From the NCBI RefSeq assembly GCF_900220975.1, contig NZ_OBQD01000020.1:1-64000 (forward strand): a DNA stretch of 64,000 nt, in the 5' to 3' direction. The DNA is from Rhizobium subbaraonis (GTDB taxonomy: Bacteria > Pseudomonadota > Alphaproteobacteria > Rhizobiales > Rhizobiaceae). Below, piece by piece: positions 19,802-30,296 of the stretch (its first letter is position 1; each line of letters begins with the position of its first letter). The notes under the pieces were generated by a model. It was given only the letters and a program-made list of their open reading frames with translations, searched no databases and had not been told where the DNA came from. Position numbers and translations under genes: made by a program.

Positions 19802-20887
19802 ATGGATCGTGCCCTGAACGAGATGCGAACGTCACCGTTGCTCTGGCTGCTGGTGTTCGTCCCCGTAGTCCTTGCGGGCGAACGCCTCTGGCCCGATCGC
19901 CATACGCTGCTGTTCCTGCTTTCGGTACTGGCCATCGTCCCACTGGCGGCGCTGCTGAGCCGGGCGACCGAGTCGGTGGCGGCGCGGACCGGCGATGCGA
20001 TCGGCGGCCTTCTGAACGCCACGCTCGGCAACCTCACGGAACTCGTCATCGCGCTGACGGCCCTTCAGGCCGGCCAATACCTGCTGGTGAAGGCCTCGAT
20101 TGCCGGCGCCGTCGTCACCAACACCCTCTTCATGCTCGGCGGGGCCTTCCTGATCGGTGGGCTGAAGTACCACGAGCAGGAGTTCAACCGCATAACCGCG
20201 CGCGTCCAGTCCGGCCTGCTCTTCCTCGCGACCGTGGCTCTGCTCGTGCCCTCGTTCGTCGCCCAGGTGGACGGACGCGAAGCCGTCACCCAGCCCCTCA
20301 GCCTCGGGCTCTCGGTCCTGCTGATCCTCGGTTACGGCCTCTCGTTGCTGTTCGCCCTGAAGACCCACAAGGAGGCCTTCGCGAGCGCCGGCCATGGCGA
20401 GGCGGATGAGGAGCCCTGGCCGATCAGCTTCGCCCTGGTCACCCTGGCGCTGGTGACGGTGCTGGTCGCCCTCGTCAGCGAGGTCTTCGTGTCCTCGGTA
20501 CAGATCGCGGCCGAGACGCTGGGAATGTCGTCCGCCTTCGTCGGCTTCGTCGTCGTCGCGATCGTCGGCGCCGCCGCCGAGATGACGACGGCCTTCTCGG
20601 CCGCCGCCAAGGACCGCCTCGACCTCAGCGTCGGCATCGCACTCGGCAGCGCCGCCCAGATCGCGCTCTTCGTGGCGCCGCTGCTTGTGCTCCTGAGCTA
20701 TGTCATCGGGCCGCAGCCGATGAGCCTGCAGTTCTGGCCGGGCGCCATCGCGATGATGCTGATTGCGACCATGGCGGCTGCGCTGATGACGAACGGCGGC
20801 CGCTCCGCCTGGTTCCTCGGCGTGATGATCCTGATGGTCTATGCGATTTTTGCGCTGACCCTCTTCCTGCTTCCGCCGGCGTCATGA
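19802..20887 (+). CDS. calcium/proton antiporter (CaCA family, Cax type)
   Basis: 361 aa from ATG 19802 (a GTG at 19796 is also in frame). About eleven hydrophobic helices. The two inverted alpha-repeat motifs are plain: GNLTELVIAL at about 75 and GAAAEMTTAF at about 255, each with the acidic cation-binding residue. An acidic loop (HGEADEEPW) separates the halves. It should export Ca2+ from the cytoplasm in exchange for H+. It overlaps the VIT-like gene by ATGA and opens a run of ion and phosphate genes. Confidence 0.93.
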   Translation: MDRALNEMRTSPLLWLLVFVPVVLAGERLWPDRHTLLFLLSVLAIVPLAALLSRATESVAARTGDAIGGLLNATLGNLTELVIALTALQAGQYLLVKASIAGAVVTNTLFMLGGAFLIGGLKYHEQEFNRITARVQSGLLFLATVALLVPSFVAQVDGREAVTQPLSLGLSVLLILGYGLSLLFALKTHKEAFASAGHGEADEEPWPISFALVTLALVTVLVALVSEVFVSSVQIAAETLGMSSAFVGFVVVAIVGAAAEMTTAFSAAAKDRLDLSVGIALGSAAQIALFVAPLLVLLSYVIGPQPMSLQFWPGAIAMMLIATMAAALMTNGGRSAWFLGVMILMVYAIFALTLFLLPPAS

Positions 20888-21591
20888 CCATGAAACACGA
20901 TCCACCTCCGGCGGCTGTGACAAGGGGCGAAGCCGCAACGGTGCGCGCCGCCACATCCCGCCGCGTGCTCGACCCGGTGGCGCGTGCGAGCGAGGTTCTG
21001 TTCGGCCTGATCATGGTCCTGACCTTTACGTTGTCCCTCGCCGCAGCCGGGGCCGGCCGGGCGGACGTGCCGGCCGTGCTGCTCGGGGCACTCGGCTGCA
21101 ACCTCGCCTGGGCCATCATCGATGCCGCCATGTACCTGATGGGCGTGCGCGGGGAACGCCGGCTGGCGATTTCCACCATCCAGGCGATCCGCGGCGCCGA
21201 AAGCCCCGAGGTCGGGCGCGCGATCGTCGCGGAGAACATCCCGCCCGCAGTCCTGCCGGCGCTGACGACATCCGACCTGGATCGCATCCGGCTGCATCTC
21301 TCCCGTCTTCCGCCCGAAACCCTCGAAACCCGGTTCAACCGGGAGGACTATCTGGCTGCCCTTGGCGTCTTCCTGCTTGTCTTCCTGTGTCTCTTTCCGG
21401 TCGCCGCACCCTTCCTCCTCTTTGCCGACCTGACGCTCGCCCTCAGGCTCTCGAACATCGTCGCCGTCGCCATGCTGTTCCTGACCGGCTTCACCTTTGG
21501 CCGGCAGGTTGGGCGGCCCTGGCGCGGCGGTTTCCTGATGGTGGCGATCGGGGTGGCGCTCGTCGCCGTTGCGCTGGCCCTGGGCGGATAA
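20884..21591 (+). CDS. VIT1/CCC1-like membrane protein
   Basis: 235 aa. ATG 20884 overlaps the antiporter stop (ATGA). Hydrophobic segments around GLIMVLTFTLSLAAAGAG, LLGALGCNLAWAIIDAAMYL, the FLLVFLCLFPVAAPFLLF hairpin and the C-terminal MVAIGVALVAVALALGG match divergent VIT/CCC1 proteins, with a soluble helical segment between helices 2 and 3. Classical members move Fe2+ or Mn2+ out of the cytosol. Coupling to a Ca2+/H+ antiporter suggests shared divalent-cation handling; the cation specificity is unknown. Confidence 0.78.
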   Translation: MTMKHDPPPAAVTRGEAATVRAATSRRVLDPVARASEVLFGLIMVLTFTLSLAAAGAGRADVPAVLLGALGCNLAWAIIDAAMYLMGVRGERRLAISTIQAIRGAESPEVGRAIVAENIPPAVLPALTTSDLDRIRLHLSRLPPETLETRFNREDYLAALGVFLLVFLCLFPVAAPFLLFADLTLALRLSNIVAVAMLFLTGFTFGRQVGRPWRGGFLMVAIGVALVAVALALGG

Positions 21592-21732
21592 GCCGCTCCC
21601 GGCCTCCACCGGCTGCAGTCGGGAGCACGCCGTCTTACGGCAGCGTGCGGGTGCTTGCCCGCTCTCTCGGCGCCGACCGGTATCACGCCGCAGGCCGCCA
21701 TGCCCGGGCGGGGAACAAGGAAGGGGAGCGAA

Positions 21733-23466
21733 GTGACACAGCCAGCACACGCCCAGCGCGCGACCCTTCCCTCCGGGACGGGATTGCGTCCGGATGTCAT
21801 CGCCGGCCTGACAGCGGCCGCCGTCGTCCTGCCCAAGGCCATGGCTTATGCCACGGTGGCGGGCCTCTCGGTGAGCGTGGGTCTCTACACGGCCTTCGTC
21901 CCGATGATCGTCTATGCCCTTCTTGGCACATCGCGGGTGCTCAGCGTCAGCTCGACGACGACGCTTGCGATTCTCGTCGCGGCGCAACTGGCGCTGGTCG
22001 TTCCGGACGGAAATCCCGCCGCGCTCGTCGTCACGACTGCGACGCTCACCGCGCTGACGGGGCTCCTGCTGGTCGCGGCCTCCGTCCTGCGCCTCGGCTT
22101 CGTCGCGAACTTCGTCTCGGCGCCCGTCCTGACCGGTTTCAAGGCCGGGATCGGGCTGGTGATCGTGCTCGACCAGGTTCCGAAGCTGTTCGGAATCCAC
22201 ATCACCAAGGAGGGTTTCTTTCGCGATGTGCTGAGCCTCGTGCAGCAACTTCCGGAATCCTCGATGCTCACTCTGGCGATCGGGGGAGTGACCCTGTTGC
22301 TGCTGCTGGCAATGGAGCGGCTCTGGCCCCATTCTCCGGCCCCGCTTGCGGTGGTCGCCGGCGGCATCGCGGTGTCCTGGCTTGCCGGGCTCTCCGCCGG
22401 AGGCGTCGCGACGGTCGGCCACATCCCGCAGGCACTGCCGTCGATGACCCTGCCGGACCTCGGCCTCGTCATGCAATTGCTGCCCGGCGCGATCGGCATC
22501 GCACTGATGAGCTTCACCGAGACGATCGCCGCCGGCCGCGCCTTCGCCCTGCCGCCGGAGCCGCCGATCCGGGCCGACCGCGAGCTTCTGGCGACCGGCG
22601 CCGCCAACCTGGCCGGAGCCCTCTTCGGGGCGATGCCGGCCGGCGGCGGAACGTCTCAGACGGCTGTCGTCCGCGCGGTCGGCGGTCGCACGCAGAAGGC
22701 GTCGCTCGTCACCGCGGCCGCTTCGGCCGCGACCATGCTGGTTCTGGCGCCCGCGCTTGGCCTCCTGCCGCAGGCGGTGCTTGCCGCCATTGTGATCGTC
22801 TACTCGATCGGACTGATCCAGCCACTTGAGTTTGCGGCGATCCGCAAGGTCCGCACCATGGAATTCGGCTGGGCGCTGGCGGCCTTCGCCGGCGTACTCG
22901 TGTTCGGCACGTTGCAGGGCATCCTCGTCGCCATCATCCTGTCGCTGCTGGGACTGGCCGGCCAGGCGGCAAACCCGCGGGTCCACGTCATCGGCCGAAA
23001 GCGTAGCGACGACGTTCTGCGCCCGCTATCGCCGGAACATCCCGACGACGAGACCTTCGAAGGCCTGCTGATCCTGCGGCCCGAGGGCCGGCTCTTCTTC
23101 GCCAACGCGCAGCAGGTCAGCGACCGGATCCGGGAACTCGTGGCCCAGCATAAGCCCCGCGTTCTGATGCTCGACCTCAGCCGGGTCTTCGACATCGGAT
23201 ACTCCGCGCTGCTGGTGATGACGGAGGGCGAACGCCGCTTTGCCGAAGCGGGCGTGACGGTCTGGCTCGCCGGACTGAACCCGGACGTCCTGCGCTACAT
23301 CCGCTCGTCCGGGCTCGCCGAGCATCTCGGAAACGACCGCATGTTCGCCAACGCCCGCGCGGGTCTCCGCAGATACCTCGAAGCCCCGCCCGGCGGCGGG
23401 AGCGATGCGGACGCGAAAGAGAGTTTCGGCCGCTCGGATGCGAAAGGTGAAGCGACACCAGAGTGA
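21733..23466 (+). CDS. SulP-family anion transporter with STAS domain
   Basis: 577 aa from GTG 21733, chosen for the GGGGAG just upstream and because the extra 26 residues of the longer frame are not family-like. The membrane part has the SulP signature (AVVLPKAMAYATVAGLSVSV) and SFTETIAAGRAFALPPEPPI plus GAMPAGGGTSQTAVVRAVGG. The C-terminal cytoplasmic STAS domain (about 440-550) contains VLMLDLSRVFDIGYSALLVM. Substrates of the family include sulfate, bicarbonate and dicarboxylates. It follows the VIT-like gene by about 140 bp and precedes the CYTH-Ppx gene. Confidence 0.93.
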   Translation: MTQPAHAQRATLPSGTGLRPDVIAGLTAAAVVLPKAMAYATVAGLSVSVGLYTAFVPMIVYALLGTSRVLSVSSTTTLAILVAAQLALVVPDGNPAALVVTTATLTALTGLLLVAASVLRLGFVANFVSAPVLTGFKAGIGLVIVLDQVPKLFGIHITKEGFFRDVLSLVQQLPESSMLTLAIGGVTLLLLLAMERLWPHSPAPLAVVAGGIAVSWLAGLSAGGVATVGHIPQALPSMTLPDLGLVMQLLPGAIGIALMSFTETIAAGRAFALPPEPPIRADRELLATGAANLAGALFGAMPAGGGTSQTAVVRAVGGRTQKASLVTAAASAATMLVLAPALGLLPQAVLAAIVIVYSIGLIQPLEFAAIRKVRTMEFGWALAAFAGVLVFGTLQGILVAIILSLLGLAGQAANPRVHVIGRKRSDDVLRPLSPEHPDDETFEGLLILRPEGRLFFANAQQVSDRIRELVAQHKPRVLMLDLSRVFDIGYSALLVMTEGERRFAEAGVTVWLAGLNPDVLRYIRSSGLAEHLGNDRMFANARAGLRRYLEAPPGGGSDADAKESFGRSDAKGEATPE

Positions 23467-23486
23467 CCGAGGTTCGCCCTGGCACT

Positions 23487-23500
23487 TTGACGAGGATCAA
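23487..23500. promoter_or_regulatory. FNR/FixK-type box (perfect TTGA-N6-TCAA)
   Basis: TTGACGAGGATCAA lies 50 bp before the ATG of the CYTH-Ppx gene and 20 bp after the SulP stop. It matches the CRP/FNR-family half-site pair used by FixK, FnrL and Anr. At this distance it could overlap the core promoter. It suggests oxygen-linked control of the polyphosphate genes. Confidence 0.55.
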
Positions 23501-23549
23501 AGAACGCTTCTCGCGCTTACATTAGCATTCCACCAATTAGGGGTGGATC

Positions 23550-25043
23550 ATGCAAAAGATCGTTCCACGGTGGGAGTGGCGCTCCTTTGGGCGCAGTTTC
23601 CCGGCGGCAGAGAGTTCCCTCTCCCGTCTGACGCCCAGCGGCGTCCAGGAAACCGACGAGATCTACCTTCTTTCCGGCAGTGGCGAAAATGTGAAGGTCC
23701 GCGGCGAGCTGATGGACGTGAAGGTCCTGCGCGAGACCAGCGTTGATGGCCCGGAACAGTGGACACCCGTCATGAAGGCGGCCTTTCCGTTATCTGCGGC
23801 CGACACGGCAGGGGTGCTCGGCGCCTTGCACTTGCCGGTGCCAGGGTCCCTGCGTGACAGCTACACGCTCGACGCGTTCCTTGCAGCGTTCGCGGGCCGC
23901 GACAGCGCCATCCGGATCGCCCGGGTTCACAAGCGACGTGTGCGCTACACGATTGACGGATGCATGGCCGAGCTTTCAGACATCCTAGTGGAGGGACGAT
24001 CGACCCGCACGATCGCCGTCGAATCCGAAGACGCGGGCGCGGTCGTCCGCGCCGTCGCGGGACTGGGGCTCGGCGACTACCTCAATGTCAGCTATCCCCG
24101 CGGCCTGCCGGCCCTGCTGGACGACGAGCCGGAACGCTACGCCGTCATCGACGTCGGCACGAATTCGGTCAAGTTCAACATCAGTGCCCGGGACAGCCAG
24201 GGCGCGTGGCGGACCGTCGCCGACCGTGCCGAGGTCACCCGCCTGGGCGAGGGGCTGTCGGCGACGGGCGTGATCGGCGACACGCCGATCGAGCGAACGG
24301 TCGCGGCGATCTCCGGAATGGTTGGCGAGGCGCGCCGAAACGGCGTTCGGGCGATCGCCGCGGTCGGCACAGCCGGGTTGAGGATTGCCACGAACGGCGC
24401 CGAGGTGGTCTCGGCCATCCGCGCACGTACAGGGCTGCAGATCGAGGTCATATCGGGCGAGGACGAGGCACGGCTGGCATACCGGGCGACGGTCGCCGCA
24501 CTGGGGTCGACGGCCGGGTCGCTGGTGGTGTTCGACACCGGCGGCGGCAGCTCGCAGTTCACCTTCGGGCATGGCACCAAGATCGACGAGCGCTTCAGCG
24601 TTGACGTCGGCGCGGCCCGCTACACCGAGCGGTTCGGCCTCGACGGTGCCGTGCCGCAATCAAAGCTCGGCGAAGCGATGGCGGCGATTTCCATGGATCT
24701 CGCGCGCCTTGACGGGCGCCCGGCTCCCGACGTGCTGGTGGGCATGGGCGGCGCGGTCACCAACCTCACTGCGGTCATGCACGGTCTTGCCACATACGAT
24801 CCGCGCATCGTTCAGGGGTCGGTCCTGGTTCGCACCGAGGTGGATCGTCAGATCGCGCTCTACCGCTCGCAAGGCTGCGATGCGCGCCGATCCATCGTCG
24901 GCCTTCAGCCGAACCGCGCGGAGGTGATCCTCGCGGGGGCCTGCATCGTGCGGACGGTGATGGAGAAGCTCGGCATGGCCAGCCTGACGGTGAGCGACCG
25001 CGGTCTGCGCCACGGCGTGCTTGTAGAGAAGTTTGGCGGATGA
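23550..25043 (+). CDS. CYTH-like domain fused to Ppx/GppA exopolyphosphatase
   Basis: 497 aa. Residues 1 to about 195 look like a CYTH-type triphosphate tunnel fold: opening WEWRSFGRSF, then NVKVRGELMDVKVLRETS and RRVRYTIDGCMAELSDILVE, with alternating charged beta strands. Residues about 197-497 are a Ppx/GppA phosphohydrolase: YAVIDVGTNSVKFN (phosphate 1 loop), VGTAGLRIA, VISGEDEARLAYRA (catalytic Glu region), VFDTGGGSSQF (phosphate 2 loop) and LVGMGGAVTNL. Typical Ppx proteins lack the first domain. The Ppx half should cut polyphosphate or pppGpp; the CYTH half may bind the polymer or another triphosphate. Cytoplasmic. It is followed at 37 bp by a separate CYTH gene. Confidence 0.88.
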   Translation: MQKIVPRWEWRSFGRSFPAAESSLSRLTPSGVQETDEIYLLSGSGENVKVRGELMDVKVLRETSVDGPEQWTPVMKAAFPLSAADTAGVLGALHLPVPGSLRDSYTLDAFLAAFAGRDSAIRIARVHKRRVRYTIDGCMAELSDILVEGRSTRTIAVESEDAGAVVRAVAGLGLGDYLNVSYPRGLPALLDDEPERYAVIDVGTNSVKFNISARDSQGAWRTVADRAEVTRLGEGLSATGVIGDTPIERTVAAISGMVGEARRNGVRAIAAVGTAGLRIATNGAEVVSAIRARTGLQIEVISGEDEARLAYRATVAALGSTAGSLVVFDTGGGSSQFTFGHGTKIDERFSVDVGAARYTERFGLDGAVPQSKLGEAMAAISMDLARLDGRPAPDVLVGMGGAVTNLTAVMHGLATYDPRIVQGSVLVRTEVDRQIALYRSQGCDARRSIVGLQPNRAEVILAGACIVRTVMEKLGMASLTVSDRGLRHGVLVEKFGG

Positions 25044-25080
25044 GCCGGCGACGCGCCGTCGGCCCATGGAGGAGGAAACG

Positions 25081-25887
25081 ATGAACGTTCAGAAGCCGAC
25101 CAAACCGCGCCCCGGCGCCGACGGAACAGCCTTGTCCGGCGAGGACATGCTGAGGGTGTTCGAACTGTTGCAGGGCGCAACCAGCGTCGAACTGAAGCTG
25201 ATGGTGCCCGACTCCAGCCGCCGTGCGGCGGTGAAGGGGCTCGCCTTCGACCCCGTCGAGGCGGAACCGCGCCAAGTCTATTTCTTCGATACACCCGATC
25301 TTGCCTTGAACAAGGCTGGCGTGGTGCTGCGCGCCCGCAGGATCCAGGGCGGAGGCGGGGATACCGTCGTGAAGCTTCGCCCGGTCGATCCGTCGGCGCT
25401 CGACCCCGAGCTGCGCAAGGCGGCGGGCTTCAAGATCGAGCTCGACGCGATGCCGGGAGGGTATGTCTGCTCCGCCTCCTACAAGGGCGCCTGCACGGGC
25501 CAGGAGGTGCTCGACGTGGTGGAAGGCAAGGCGCCGCTCGTGTCCCTCTTCTCCAAGGAACAGCGGGACTTTTGCACGGCACATGCCCCGGCTGACATCC
25601 CGATGGAGGCGCTGGTGCCGCTTGGCCCGACGTTCCTTCTGCGCCTCAAGCACCAGCCGAAGGGCTTCGATCGTCGTCTCACCATCGAGTTCTGGCTCTA
25701 CCCCGACGGGTCTCGTGTCTTCGAAGTCTCGACGAAATGCGACACCAGGGAAGCCTTCCAGGTGGGCGTCGAGTTCAGAGCGCTGATGGCCAAGTGCGGA
25801 ATCCCCGTGGAGGTGAGCCAGGAAGCGAAAACGAACAGCGCGCTTGCCTTCTTCAGCAAAGAGCTCGCAACAGGACAACCCGGATGA
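25081..25887 (+). CDS. stand-alone CYTH-domain protein
   Basis: 268 aa, ATG 25081 after GGAGGAAACG. CYTH features are visible: the charged first strand SVELKLMV (variant ExExK), VYFFDTPDLALNKAGVVLRA, DTVVKLRPVDPS and RRLTIEFWLYPDGSRVFEVS. The family binds and often cleaves triphosphates (thiamine triphosphate, inorganic tripolyphosphate) with Mg2+, inside a beta tunnel. The length exceeds the minimal domain (about 180 aa), with a helical C-terminal extension. It sits between the CYTH-Ppx fusion and an efflux adaptor whose ATG overlaps its stop. Triphosphatase activity is likely but the substrate is unknown. Confidence 0.85.
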   Translation: MNVQKPTKPRPGADGTALSGEDMLRVFELLQGATSVELKLMVPDSSRRAAVKGLAFDPVEAEPRQVYFFDTPDLALNKAGVVLRARRIQGGGGDTVVKLRPVDPSALDPELRKAAGFKIELDAMPGGYVCSASYKGACTGQEVLDVVEGKAPLVSLFSKEQRDFCTAHAPADIPMEALVPLGPTFLLRLKHQPKGFDRRLTIEFWLYPDGSRVFEVSTKCDTREAFQVGVEFRALMAKCGIPVEVSQEAKTNSALAFFSKELATGQPG

Positions 25888-27146
25888 CCCACGCGGCGGC
25901 AGACCACACAGCTCGAAGGTATGTGCGAAATTCGAAGCAATCGGCCGTCACCGTCGAGGCGACGATTCCTGGGCCGGCATCGTCCCAGACGCCTTTGACA
26001 GTGCATGCGAGGAAGCGCCGATTTCTCGCCTTCGCGACGATGGCCGTCGTCATTGCTGCCACGATCTCTGAAGCCGCAGGCCAGGAAAACGGCAATACGG
26101 CCGCCGCATCGCCGTCTGTGACGGTGATGCGGGTGGTCTCCAAAGACATTCGGCCCTCAATTACCTTCTCCGGGCGCGTCGAAGCCATCGACAAGGTAGA
26201 TTTGCGCGCTCGCGTTGACGGCTTTCTGGAGCAGAGGCTCTTCACCGAGGGACAGGACGTGAACGACGGCGACCTTCTCTTTGTGATGGAGAAGGGCCAG
26301 TATGAGGCCGCCGTGGTCCAGGCCGAGGGGGCGATCGAGTCGGCGAAGGCGGGGCTGACACTTGCCAACATCGAGGTCGAGCGCCAGGGCACCCTTGTCG
26401 GGAAGGGCGCTGCGGCCAAGCAGCAACTGGACCTGGCGACAGCCAAGCAGCAAGAGGCCACGGGAAGCCTGACCCAGCTCCGGGCCGCCCTCGACAGGGC
26501 CAGGCTGGACCTGGGCTACACCGATATCCGGGCGCCGATCGCGGGACGCATCGGCCGCTCGCAATACTCTGTGGGAAATTTTGTCGGCCCGTCGAGCGAT
26601 GTGCTTGCGACAATCGTCAGTCAGGATCCGATCTACGCGACCTTCTCGGTGTCGCAGCGGGAAATTCTGGCGGTTCGCGAAAAACTGGGCAGCACCGGAA
26701 AGCTGGGCGGGCATCTGAGCGCGGCGAATGTCTTTTTGCTGCTTGCCAACGGCAAAAGGTATCCAGAGCCCGGAAAGGTCAATTTCGTCGACGTGACCGT
26801 CGATCAGGGCACCGACACCGTGCCCGTGCGAGCGGCCTTTCCCAATCCCGACCGCGTGCTGATCGATGGCCAACTCGTCGACGTCATCGTTGAGGGCGGA
26901 ACTGCGGAGGCCGCGCTGCTCGTGCCGCAGGCGGCGATCCAGATCGATCAGGCGGGTCCCTACGCGCTTGTCGTCAACAAGGAGAACAAGATCGAGGTCC
27001 GTCGGATAGAGCCTGGGCAAGTTCAAGGTGCGGATCTGGCGGTAACCAAGGGGCTCGCGGCGGGCGACATGGTGGTTACCGAAGGGGTGCAAAAGGTTCG
27101 TCCCGGCCAGGTGGTGGAACCGGTCGAAGCAAAGACGGGCTCCTGA
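25884..27146 (+). CDS. RND efflux periplasmic adaptor (membrane fusion protein)
   Basis: 420 aa. ATG 25884 overlaps the CYTH stop (ATGA), so translation is probably coupled. An N-terminal hydrophobic signal or anchor lies at about 52-68. The adaptor body shows the lipoyl half-motifs VDLRARVDGFLEQRLFTEGQ and YTDIRAPIAGRIGRSQYSVG, an alpha hairpin between them, and the beta-barrel/MP parts (VPQAAIQIDQAGPYALVVNK, GLAAGDMVVTEGVQKVRPGQ). It links the pump encoded next to an outer-membrane channel, which is not in the window. Its TGA is directly in frame with the pump reading frame. Confidence 0.93.
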   Translation: MTHAAADHTARRYVRNSKQSAVTVEATIPGPASSQTPLTVHARKRRFLAFATMAVVIAATISEAAGQENGNTAAASPSVTVMRVVSKDIRPSITFSGRVEAIDKVDLRARVDGFLEQRLFTEGQDVNDGDLLFVMEKGQYEAAVVQAEGAIESAKAGLTLANIEVERQGTLVGKGAAAKQQLDLATAKQQEATGSLTQLRAALDRARLDLGYTDIRAPIAGRIGRSQYSVGNFVGPSSDVLATIVSQDPIYATFSVSQREILAVREKLGSTGKLGGHLSAANVFLLLANGKRYPEPGKVNFVDVTVDQGTDTVPVRAAFPNPDRVLIDGQLVDVIVEGGTAEAALLVPQAAIQIDQAGPYALVVNKENKIEVRRIEPGQVQGADLAVTKGLAAGDMVVTEGVQKVRPGQVVEPVEAKTGS

Positions 27147-27152
27147 GCCAGG

Positions 27153-30100
27153 CTGTCCGCGACCTTCATCGATCGGCCACGGCTTGCAATCGTCATTTCT
27201 CTGGTCATCACCATCGCGGGTCTGGTCGCGCTCGCCGTCATTCCCATCGCACAGTTCCCGGACATCGTGCCACCGCAGGTGTCGGTAACCGTGAGCTATC
27301 CCGGGGCGAGCGCGGAGATCGTTCAGCAATCCATTGCCCAGCCGATCGAATCGCGCGTCGTCGGCGTCGACAACATGATCTACATGAAGTCGACCAGCGG
27401 CAATGACGGCAGCTACACGCTGACCGTCAGTTTCTCGGTCGGCACCGATCCCGATATCAATGCGGTCAACGTGCAGAATCGCGTCAACCTTGCCGAAGCG
27501 CAGCTTCCGCAAGAGGCGCGCGCTCAGGGCATCAGTGTCAAAAAGAAGTCTTCGGCGCTGATGCAGTTGATCGCACTGACATCGCCCGATGGCAACCATG
27601 ACCAGCTTTTCCTGTCGAACTACGCGACAATCAACATCATTGACGGCCTGAAGCGGATACGCGGCGTCGGCGACGTCTCGCTCCTGACCCCGTCCGACTA
27701 CAGCATGCGCATCTGGGTCACGCCCCAGCGTCTGACGAACTACAACCTCACCCCGAACGATATCGTCGATGCGCTGAAACGCCAGAACGTTCAGGCAGCG
27801 ATCGGCCGCATCGGCGCCCAGCCCGCCCTGCCCGACCAGCAGTTCCAGCTCACCATCCAGACCAAGGGCCGCCTCGTCACCGTCGAGGAATTCGAAAGCG
27901 TCGTGCTGAGGGCCAATCCCGATGGCTCGTTCGTCAGGATCCGTGACGTCGCGCGCGTGGAACTCGCCTCGAAATCGTCCGAGCAAATCGGAAGGCAGGA
28001 CGGTAAAGCCGCTGCCGTCCTCGGGATCTATCAAGCTCCAGGCGGCAATGCGATCGCAACGGCGGAAGCCATCGATCAGCTCCTGGAGCAACTCAAACCC
28101 TCGTTTCCGGAAGACGTCGAGTACCAGATCACATACGACACGACGACGTTCGTCGAGGAGAGCATCCACGAGGTCGTCAAGACCTTGTTGGAAGCCTTCG
28201 TCCTCGTCATCATCGTCGTTTACCTGTTTCTTGGAAGTGTCCGCGCAACGCTCATTCCGCTGATCGCTGTGCCCGTATCGCTTATCGGCACCTTCGCGGT
28301 GATGCTGGCGCTGGGATTTTCGGCCAATACGGTCTCGCTTCTCGCCCTGGTCCTGGCGATCGGCATCGTGGTCGACGACGCTATCGTGGTGGTCGAAGCG
28401 GTGGAGGCGCATCTGGAGAAAGATCCGAGCGCGACGCCGGCAGAGGCTGCGCGCCGGGCGATGGCCGAGATCACCGCGCCTATCATCGCGATCACGCTGG
28501 TCCTGCTGTCGGTATTCGTCCCGGTGGCCTTCATCCCAGGCATTTCCGGCGAGCTCTTCCGGCAGTTCGCCGTTGCGGTCTCTGTGTCCATGGTGATTTC
28601 CGCCATCAACGCGCTGACGCTGTCGCCGGCGCTCTGCGGCATCCTGCTCAAGGCGCATCATGGACCGAAACGCGGTCCCATCCGCTATGTGCTGAGGGGC
28701 ATCGACCTCGCCCGCGATGGTTATGCTGCCATCGTGCGCCGGCTCGTTCGCGTCGCCGTGCTTGGCCTGGTGGTCCTGGCGGCTCTCTTCGTGGGCACGG
28801 CGTGGTTGTTCAAGACGACACCGACAGGCTTCCTTCCCTCCGAGGACCAGGGTGCCATCTTCGGCGAAATCGTGTTGCCGGATGGCGCCTCGGTCAACCG
28901 GACGGATGCCGTGGCCAAGAGCGTCGAAGAGTTGATGCGCGGCACGGATGGCGTTCAGGGCGTCATGTCGGTCGTGGGCTACAGCCTGCTTGACGGACAG
29001 GTGAAATCGAACGCCGCCCTGCTCGTAATGACCCTGAAGCCCTTTGCAGACCGCACCGAGCCCGCCCTGTCCGTCAACGGCCTGATCGCCAAATTGAGCG
29101 AAGAACTCGGCGCGATCCGTGAAGCCAATGTCATCGTCTACAACCTGCCGCCGATCATCGGACTTGGGACGGGCAGCGGCTTCGAATACCAGCTCTTGAG
29201 CCTCGGCGGCGCCGGGGCCACCGAAATTGCCCAGGCTTCCCGTGGCCTTGTGTTCGCGGCAAATCAGGATCCGGCGCTGAACCGGGTCTTCACGACCTAT
29301 GCCGCCGCCACGCCCCAGCTTTATCTCGATATCGACCGTGAGAAAGTGCAGACGCTCGGCATCGAGGTTTCGGATGTCTTCAATGTGCTTCAGTCGGTCC
29401 TCGGCAGTGCCTACGCCAACGACTTCAACCTGTTCGGCCGAACCTGGCAGGTGACGGTCCAGGGCGAAGCTTCCGAGCGGGCGAAGGTCGATGACATCTA
29501 CCGGATCAACGTCCGCAACAACAAGGGACAGATGGTGCCGGTCAGGGCATTTGCCGAGGCGCGCCTCATTCTCGGGCCCCAGTTCATCGTGCGCTACAAC
29601 AACTATGTCAGCGCCACGATCAACGGCGAGCCCGCGCCGGGCCGCAGTTCGGGCGAGGCCATCGCCGCAATGGAAGAGGTTTCCGCAAAAACGCTGCCGC
29701 CGGGCTACAGCTATGAGTGGACCGGAACGGCGCTGCAGGAGATCGAGGCCAGCGGCAAGACGGCAATGATACTGGGGCTCGCCGTGCTCTTCGCCTATCT
29801 GTTCCTCGTCGGGCTCTACGAGAGCTGGACCATCCCGGTCGCCGTTCTGCTTTCGGTGACCGCCGGCATCGCCGGGTCGATGCTGGCTCTCAAGATCGCC
29901 GGTCTCGACAACAACCTCTACGCCCAGATCGGCCTTGTGGTGCTGATCGCCCTTGCCGCGAAGAACGGCATTCTCATCGTCGAGTTCGCCATGGAGCGCC
30001 GCAGGCACGGATTGGAGATCGCGGAAGCGGCGGTCGAGGGGGCGAAGGAACGGTTCCGCGCCGTGATGATGACTAGCTTTGCTTTCATTGCCGGCCTCCT

Positions 30101-30296
30101 TCCGCTGGTCACGGCCGAAGGTGCCGGCATGCTCAGCCGCCGCGGCGTCGGCACGGCAGTGTTCGGCGGCATGCTGGCGGCGGCGGTGCTCGGCATCTTC
30201 CTGATCCCGGTGCTCTATGTGATCTTCCAGTGGCTCCGTGAAAAGCTGAAGGGCATCAAACGAATGCCGAAACCTCGGGTGACGAAGGAGAGCTAG
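27153..30296 (+). CDS. RND efflux pump (HAE1/AcrB type), start codon abnormal
   Basis: About 1047 aa if read from CTG 27153. The expected N-terminus ([20 protein letters not shown], transmembrane helix 1) is present from 27153, but no ATG, GTG or TTG exists between the adaptor stop (27144-27146) and a GTG at 27267 that would remove the first helix. The codon before CTG is AGG, one base from ATG. The rest is intact: [20 protein letters not shown], the TM4 acidic pair in [35 protein letters not shown] and a complete C-terminus with TM10 Lys in [16 protein letters not shown]. Drug/proton antiport is the family role. Candidates are CTG initiation, TGA readthrough, or an inactivating or sequencing change. 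Confidence 0.85.

Follow-up and report, generated by a model that had tools for sequence, protein, structure and literature searches.

A putative CYTH-like domain fused to a Ppx/GppA domain in Rhizobium subbaraonis: a rare but widely distributed domain and its possible link to polyphosphate

Introduction

Why would a protein of the Ppx/GppA family carry an additional N-terminal domain, and why would its gene lie between a row of ion carriers and the gene of a second CYTH-type protein? This question is raised by a stretch of 64,000 nucleotides from Rhizobium subbaraonis (contig NZ_OBQD01000020.1, positions 1 to 64,000; the window from here on), in which the initial annotation had described five consecutive genes, coding for a Ca2+/H+ antiporter (CAX), a VIT/CCC1-like protein, a SulP anion transporter, a CYTH-like domain fused to Ppx/GppA (P0004) and a second CYTH protein (P0005). 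We found all five genes where they had been placed, all on the plus strand, together with the two tight junctions described, a 4-bp overlap at 20884 and a 37-bp gap at 25044-25080.

We established directly the gene content of this arrangement, its recurrence and partner exclusivity, the family of its Ppx domain, the predicted fold of P0005 and the conservation of its residues. From these we propose, at a little short of an even chance, that the core, made up of the N-terminal domain, the Ppx/GppA domain and the P0005-type CYTH protein, would form a soluble unit for the binding and turnover of inorganic polyphosphate or short oligophosphates.

Results

The N-terminal domain is paired with phosphohydrolase-type proteins

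The fusion gene P0004 (23550..25043, plus strand) encodes a CYTH-like N-terminal domain (hereafter N-domain; residues 1-189, 23550..24116, plus strand), recognised by predicted strands and invariant residues, and a Ppx/GppA domain (residues 194-497, 24129..25043, plus strand), assigned by its PF02541 score and by alignment to the A. aeolicus Ppx/GppA protein. We compared the surroundings of the N-domain at 79 loci, drawn from the best 80 of 250 confirmed stretches obtained with one peptide pattern, a sample in which distant members are under-represented. The neighbourhoods reached at most 10 kb on each side, many of them cut by contig ends, genes were called as mechanical open reading frames, and carrier families were named by Pfam or NCBIfam, as a rule on one representative each. 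The alignments covered the N-domain at 35 of the 79 loci (A5), 29 of the 30 full fusions (A3, all except L062) and 25 of the 29 loci with a P0005-type gene (A4).

At 75 of the 79 loci a phosphohydrolase-type partner is fused to the N-domain or follows it. This partner is a fused Ppx at 32 loci, a separate downstream Ppx at 17 and, at 26, a canonical CYTH protein, which is a sequence relative (E 5.8e-24) of NE1496, described as a specific tripolyphosphatase (PMC3440374); four loci were left unassigned, L060 being cut within an apparent fusion and L099-L101 having a distant Ppx or none in the stretch covered. Among the separate-Ppx loci, L049 is possibly a broken fusion and L116 contains a 71-aa piece. 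The gap after the N-domain measures 3-18 bp for 21 of the 26 canonical CYTH genes and 9-32 bp for 14 of the 17 separate Ppx genes, with outliers at L087 (CYTH gene 1.1 kb off) and L115 (Ppx 0.4 kb off). A Ppx and a canonical CYTH protein share the partner slot at none of the 79 loci, and the two partners behave as if interchangeable. A P0005-type CYTH gene is found close by at 25 of the 32 fused loci, 3 of the 17 separate-Ppx loci, none of the 26 canonical-CYTH loci and one of the other four, and its presence beside the fusion is more than chance.

The N-domain is rare but wide in distribution. It is encoded in 5 of 240 genomes of the class and 7 of 398 of the phylum (both counts include R. 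subbaraonis), the fusion is present in 3 of the 6 other genomes of the genus, and the loci belong to Pseudomonadota, Actinomycetota, Chloroflexota, Acidobacteriota, Ignavibacteriota, Bacillota and other phyla. Plasmids are among the carriers. On the Cupriavidus plasmid pMTS1 a P0005-type gene precedes the fusion; on a mobilizable plasmid of Citrobacter freundii (L008:14445-18730) a standalone N-domain is flanked by a CYTH gene and an SLC13 permease; and on a Nostoc plasmid we found a P0005-type gene, with the N-domain unmatched at the limit used. A reverse-transcriptase-like gene, recognised by eye, lies close to the Cupriavidus pair (L007:12354-13721), and the C. freundii stretch also carries a 491-aa protein without a Pfam match.

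Further settings of the domain were also seen. A more distant standalone N-domain (L010:8053-9825) is accompanied by a DUF389 membrane protein and, encoded on the opposite strand, a DHH/DHHA2 phosphoesterase. N-domains are fused behind a GPP34 (GOLPH3-like) domain in L012:9378-11018 (by eye) and L013:4815-6032 (Pfam-checked), the latter adjoining, by eye, a PiT-like phosphate permease and a ChrA-like gene. A lipoprotein-like family present at 10 loci (as in L078:17666-18604) shows a CYTH-like stretch by eye; the one member scanned had no Pfam match.

A conserved Gln in the Ppx/GppA domain

The Ppx/GppA domain of P0004 passes PF02541 with 157 bits against a gathering score of 27 bits (residues 215-494), and structure comparison of P0004 with 3cer gave a Z of 39.2. 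In the alignment to solved Ppx structures, Gln336 falls opposite Glu148 of A. aeolicus and Glu150 of E. coli Ppx, positions described as equivalent across Ppx proteins (PMC5417653). Gln occupies this position in all 30 aligned fusions and in 36 of the 47 Ppx partners that could be assessed; the remaining 11 have Glu and are all separate genes. The P0005-type CYTH protein accompanies 27 of the 36 Gln-type partners and none of the 11 Glu-type ones. In the N-domain tree, a quick tree with several long branches, a single group of 39 rows (SH-aLRT 99) takes in the Gln-type rows together with one row of unknown state and one row from an unassigned locus. Rtg2p of yeast is described as the sole member of its family with Gln (PMC5417653), and on these alignments the Gln-type Ppx clade would be the second case.

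Such a distribution could be that of a sensor and not of an enzyme, in which the Gln-type Ppx and the two CYTH-like parts would bind a nucleotide, tripolyphosphate or polyphosphate, hydrolyse it slowly if at all, and control the transporters encoded nearby. This alternative is possible, if on the unlikely side. The uniform Gln of the fusions, the single tree group and the exclusive company of the P0005-type protein with Gln-type partners all speak for it, and so, by analogy, does Rtg2p, which uses a Gln-type Ppx fold in signalling. E306 and D329, which we equated with Glu121 and Asp143, are nevertheless invariant in 30 of 30 fusions, and NTPDases, which carry Gln at the place equivalent to Glu150 and are active, suggest that Gln need not mean inactivity; the Q193E variant of Legionella NTPDase1 is named in the title of a structure among the matches of the fusion.

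P0005 has a predicted TTM fold

The product of the last gene, P0005 (25081..25887, plus strand), scores 20.0 bits on the Pfam CYTH model, below the gathering score of 23.2, and was assigned from its AlphaFold2 model (predicted local distance difference test, pLDDT, 88.7) and structure comparison. The model gave a VIA Z of 16.9 with 2gfg (root-mean-square deviation 2.6 over 186 residues), and Z values of 16.7 with AtTTM3 (5a68), 13.3 with ygiF (5a60) and 9.7 with Vtc4 (3g3r). By this model P0005 is a protein of the TTM tunnel fold.

The basic tunnel residues are kept in P0005. Its first strand reads S35-x-E37-x-K39, an incomplete ExExK motif whose register was taken from the start of the aligned range and is partly inferred; E37 and K39 are present in 26 of 26 members and Glu at position 35 in none of the 26. 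E215 and S217 are likewise invariant (26/26), Ser217 standing where the second C-terminal Glu is expected. In AtTTM3 the acidic patch is described as Glu2, Glu4, Glu90 and Glu171, with Glu169 binding the first metal (PMC4641920).

Ion carriers differ with the type of partner

Counts at the fused and separate-Ppx loci, respectively, were 8 and 2 for SulP, 2 and 1 for CAX, 4 and 1 for VIT-like proteins, 5 and 0 for P-type ATPases (one of the five lying 8 kb away) and 4 and 0 for PPK2. At three loci (L055, L064 and L070) a type II P-type ATPase gene stops 22-38 bp short of the fusion; in L070 it is a fragment of 63 aa at the edge of the contig. The single representative compared matched Ca2+ pumps best, below the cut-off. 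The 17 separate-Ppx loci also include DASS/SLC13 (3), TctA (5), PiT (3) and NptA (2) genes. DASS, Tct, PiT, DUF47, NptA and PhnD were each found at none of the 32 fused loci. At the 26 canonical-CYTH loci we found DASS/SLC13 at 19, TctA at 10, PiT at 17, DUF47 at 18, NptA at 8, PhnD at 21 and an NtrC-type regulator at 18, and SulP, CAX, VIT-like proteins, P-type ATPase and PPK2 each at none. Over all loci, SulP, DASS or Tct carriers are present at 45 of 79 and PiT or NptA at 27 of 79. One neighbouring protein, in a Neomarinimicrobiota locus (L085:11071-12621), combines TctC and TctB domains next to TctA.

An alternative substrate would be a nucleotide or other organic phosphate (pppGpp, thiamine triphosphate), with the module tuning anion transport to this signal. 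Among proteins of solved structure, pppGpp hydrolases belong to Ppx/GppA, and thiamine triphosphatases and adenylate cyclases to TTM. The STAS domain of the SulP protein P0003 would fit such a role, as would the finding that phosphate carriers of the families sought lie near none of the 32 fused loci. We consider it unlikely: PPK2 genes near four fused loci, the tripolyphosphatase-type partner and the phosphate carriers near related versions point instead to inorganic phosphates.

A possible CYTH-like tunnel in the N-terminal domain

The N-domain, of about 190 residues, has no Pfam match in P0004 itself. None of the 42 members scanned matched CYTH in Pfam at E values up to 10, and the weak matches found were scattered among them; the best, EF-Ts_N (8e-4, in 2 of 42), was taken as a chance match. 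The AlphaFold2 model of P0004, built from 49 sequences, has a mean pLDDT of 93.4 and predicts eight strands in the N-domain (8-14, 31-41, 47-51, 54-63, 69-78, 121-135, 138-147 and 150-159). Eleven residues are invariant in all 42 members (E9, R11, Y39, K49, R51, K58, P80, K128, R130, E141 and E158). Full or almost full conservation across 14 canonical CYTH partners is seen for E6/E8, R41/R43, T52/K54, E66/E68, K90/R92, E103/D105 and E118/E120, and the conserved residues of both families follow the same order along the chain. From strand order and conserved residues we read the N-domain as a putative CYTH-like tunnel. The CYTH-like label given earlier to this part of the fusion is not contradicted by the model, but Pfam lends it no match.

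Profile comparisons of the N-domain alignment (A5) with the P0005 family (A4) and with the canonical CYTH partners (A6) found no similarity, global mode included. The comparison of A4 with A6 also found nothing; both are CYTH by fold or sequence, and the profile test is therefore insensitive. Profile searches of solved structures returned no match for A4 and one chance match for A5 (E 1.2), and the best 50 matches in the structure comparison of the whole fusion contained no CYTH chain, a list filled by the Ppx part that leaves the N-domain unprobed.

A further reading takes the N-domain as a bacterial VTC4-like polyphosphate polymerase. Glutamates 2, 4, 90 and 171 of AtTTM3 are described as replacing basic residues of Vtc4p (PMC4641920), and Arg7 of the N-domain (39 of 42 members) is placed where the first of these glutamates replaces a basic residue. 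Glu9 is invariant in 42 of 42 members, however, no VTC Pfam match is listed among them, the partner is a hydrolase-type protein, and the residue register is tentative. We hold a polymerase to be very unlikely, and this activity has the least support.

The CAX, VIT-like and SulP genes are accessory neighbours

In the window the core is preceded by a CAX-type Ca2+/H+ antiporter (P0001; 19802..20887, plus strand; TIGR00378 298 bits, cut-off 211) and a VIT1/CCC1-like membrane protein (P0002; 20884..21591, plus strand; PF01988 20.9 bits, cut-off 28.1), both accessory, and by the SulP anion transporter with a STAS domain (P0003; 21733..23466, plus strand), which is above the cut-offs of PF00916 and PF01740 and below that of TIGR00815 (349 vs 380). 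The 4-bp overlap joins the CAX and VIT-like genes; 141 bp then separate the latter from SulP, 83 bp SulP from the fusion and 37 bp the fusion from P0005. The family labels of the initial annotation hold for CAX, SulP and Ppx/GppA, which pass family models, but VIT1 and the CYTH assignment of P0005 are below threshold by sequence.

Of 230 class genomes, one, that of the window, has a CAX above the TIGR00378 cut-off, and 100 have weaker matches; the CAX proteins of L047 and L068 also pass this model. Among the 49 Ppx-type loci (32 fused and 17 separate-Ppx, many ending at contig edges), CAX is present at 3, VIT-like proteins at 5 and SulP at 10. Relatives of P0002 lie close to the module in L041, L043, L045 (a 132-aa piece), L047 (PF01988 28.1, cut-off 28.1) and L068. 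CAX, VIT-like, SulP, N-domain, Ppx and P0005-type CYTH genes occur together in L043 and L047, from Thiobacillus, and in L068, from Holophagae. In L068 the CAX and VIT-like genes are adjacent, in the order seen in the window and 71% and 50% identical to the window genes; identity is 37% for SulP, and the P0005-type gene lies on the opposite strand. The CAX, VIT-like and SulP genes of L043 and L047 all run on the strand opposite the fusion, the L047 SulP being a fragment of 220 aa where its contig ends, so these sets are neighbourhoods and not one operon. If each 4-Mb genome held one CAX and each locus spanned 18 kb, about 0.2 CAX would be expected in the 49 loci by a hand estimate; 3 were found, two of them in Thiobacillus relatives.

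Linkage beyond one genome, which had been named as a test of this grouping, was found, with the full gene content at three loci in two phyla. The proposed co-occurrence of five families stands for the core pair, which recurs, but the full set is limited to 3 of 49 loci; the CAX, VIT-like and SulP genes are genuinely linked to it, but as accessories and in part on opposite strands. That CAX and VIT genes are unrelated and landed beside the pair by chance, as their apparent absence near most pair loci and in three same-genus relatives and their opposite strand in L043 and L047 might suggest, is highly improbable given the joint presence of CAX, VIT-like and SulP at three loci of two phyla and the rarity of a CAX of this kind in the class.

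The G+C content is 0.67-0.68 across 20000-25999 against 0.60-0.64 in the flanks examined, and a recent arrival of the block fits this rise, without proof. Elsewhere in the R. subbaraonis genome are PPK1 and two PPK2 genes, two further Ppx/GppA matches and, on contig C43, a CYTH gene above the Pfam cut-off. Directly downstream of the module (25737-30296) lie an RND efflux adaptor and, by eye, the pump, which were not seen in the recurring set.

Discussion

Under the polyphosphate reading, the substrate, the direction of the reaction, the coupling to transporters and the fold of the N-domain are all inferred. The basic tunnel of the N-domain would capture a phosphate chain and present it to the fused Ppx domain, P0005 would bind or trim short chains such as tripolyphosphate, and the flanking carriers would move the ions freed by chain release or chelation: Ca2+ through CAX or the P-type ATPase, anions through SulP, DASS or Tct and, in related versions, phosphate through PiT or NptA. 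Mg2+ is described as activating, and Ca2+ as inhibiting, CYTH tripolyphosphatases, and tripolyphosphate as binding Ca2+ with high affinity (PMC3440374); Ca2+ transport could be co-encoded for this reason, and a Ca2+ link of the module is reasonable. The coupling of cation load to polyphosphate suggested in the initial annotation is plausible: the P-type ATPase before the fusion at three loci and the PPK2 genes at four are in its favour, but the lack of phosphate carriers at fused loci is not.

Several results weigh against turnover of polyphosphate by this core. PiT, DUF47 and NptA are found at none of the 32 fused loci, the window's own type; the substrates of SulP, DASS and Tct carriers are varied, and a sulfate permease model also gives a weak match to the PiT-like representative (73 bits, cut-off 400). 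With Gln at the Glu150 position, turnover by the Ppx domain is uncertain, since E. coli Ppx with the three equivalent residues mutated is described as keeping residual activity (PMC5417653), and P0005, in the register adopted, seems to be without equivalents of Glu2 and Glu171 while keeping those of Glu4 and Glu169. CAX and VIT genes are absent beside the pair in the stretch covered of the same-genus loci L034, L035 and L036, with SulP in one of them, and among the Ppx-type loci CAX was not found at 46 of 49 nor VIT at 44 of 49. In view of the Gln, of an acidic patch that seems thinned and of fused loci free of phosphate carriers, the version in the window may hydrolyse its ligand or mainly bind and report it.

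A more specific possibility, which we put forward as doubtful, is that in one bacterial clade the exchange of Glu150 for Gln and the fusion to a tunnel-like domain turned Ppx/GppA into a (tri)polyphosphate sensor that, with a second, catalytically thinned CYTH protein, sets calcium and anion transport; in its logic such a sensor would parallel Rtg2p and the vacuole/acidocalcisome set.

Known systems share parts of this arrangement. P0005 has the predicted fold of the tripolyphosphatases NeuTTM/NE1496 and AtTTM3/ygiF, and the CYTH partner of standalone N-domains is a relative of NE1496; unlike these enzymes, P0005 has Ser35 and Ser217 where Glu is expected in the register adopted. P0004 shares family and fold with the Ppx/GppA exopolyphosphatases and keeps E306 and D329, but its Ppx part is fused behind a domain unmatched in Pfam and has Gln336 at the Glu150 position. 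This Gln is also the one described for yeast Rtg2p (PMC5417653), a eukaryotic signalling protein that we liken to P0004 by this published residue alone. The yeast VTC4/acidocalcisome-like set offers an analogy in its TTM fold with CAX- and CCC1-type carriers nearby, but the comparison drawn earlier is weak in fold, with a Z of 9.7 for P0005 with 3g3r against 16.9 and 16.7 for the closest structures. CHAD-containing CYTH proteins of the ygiF type are likewise described as tied to polyphosphate biology (PMC6537752); unlike in these, a Pfam scan found no CHAD domain in P0004 or P0005. A different arrangement is described in PMC6416229, where PPK1 and an RND pump lie near a CYTH-CHAD protein. Judging by titles and abstract openings in a partial coverage of the literature, we recognised no publication describing this fusion or module.

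The module suggests that inorganic polyphosphate may be handled or sensed in a manner so far little known. Tied as it is to polyphosphatase-type proteins and ion carriers, the N-domain could be a piece still missing from the picture of bacterial phosphate storage, and the conserved Gln is a single residue on which the status of a widespread Ppx clade, as enzyme or as sensor, can turn.

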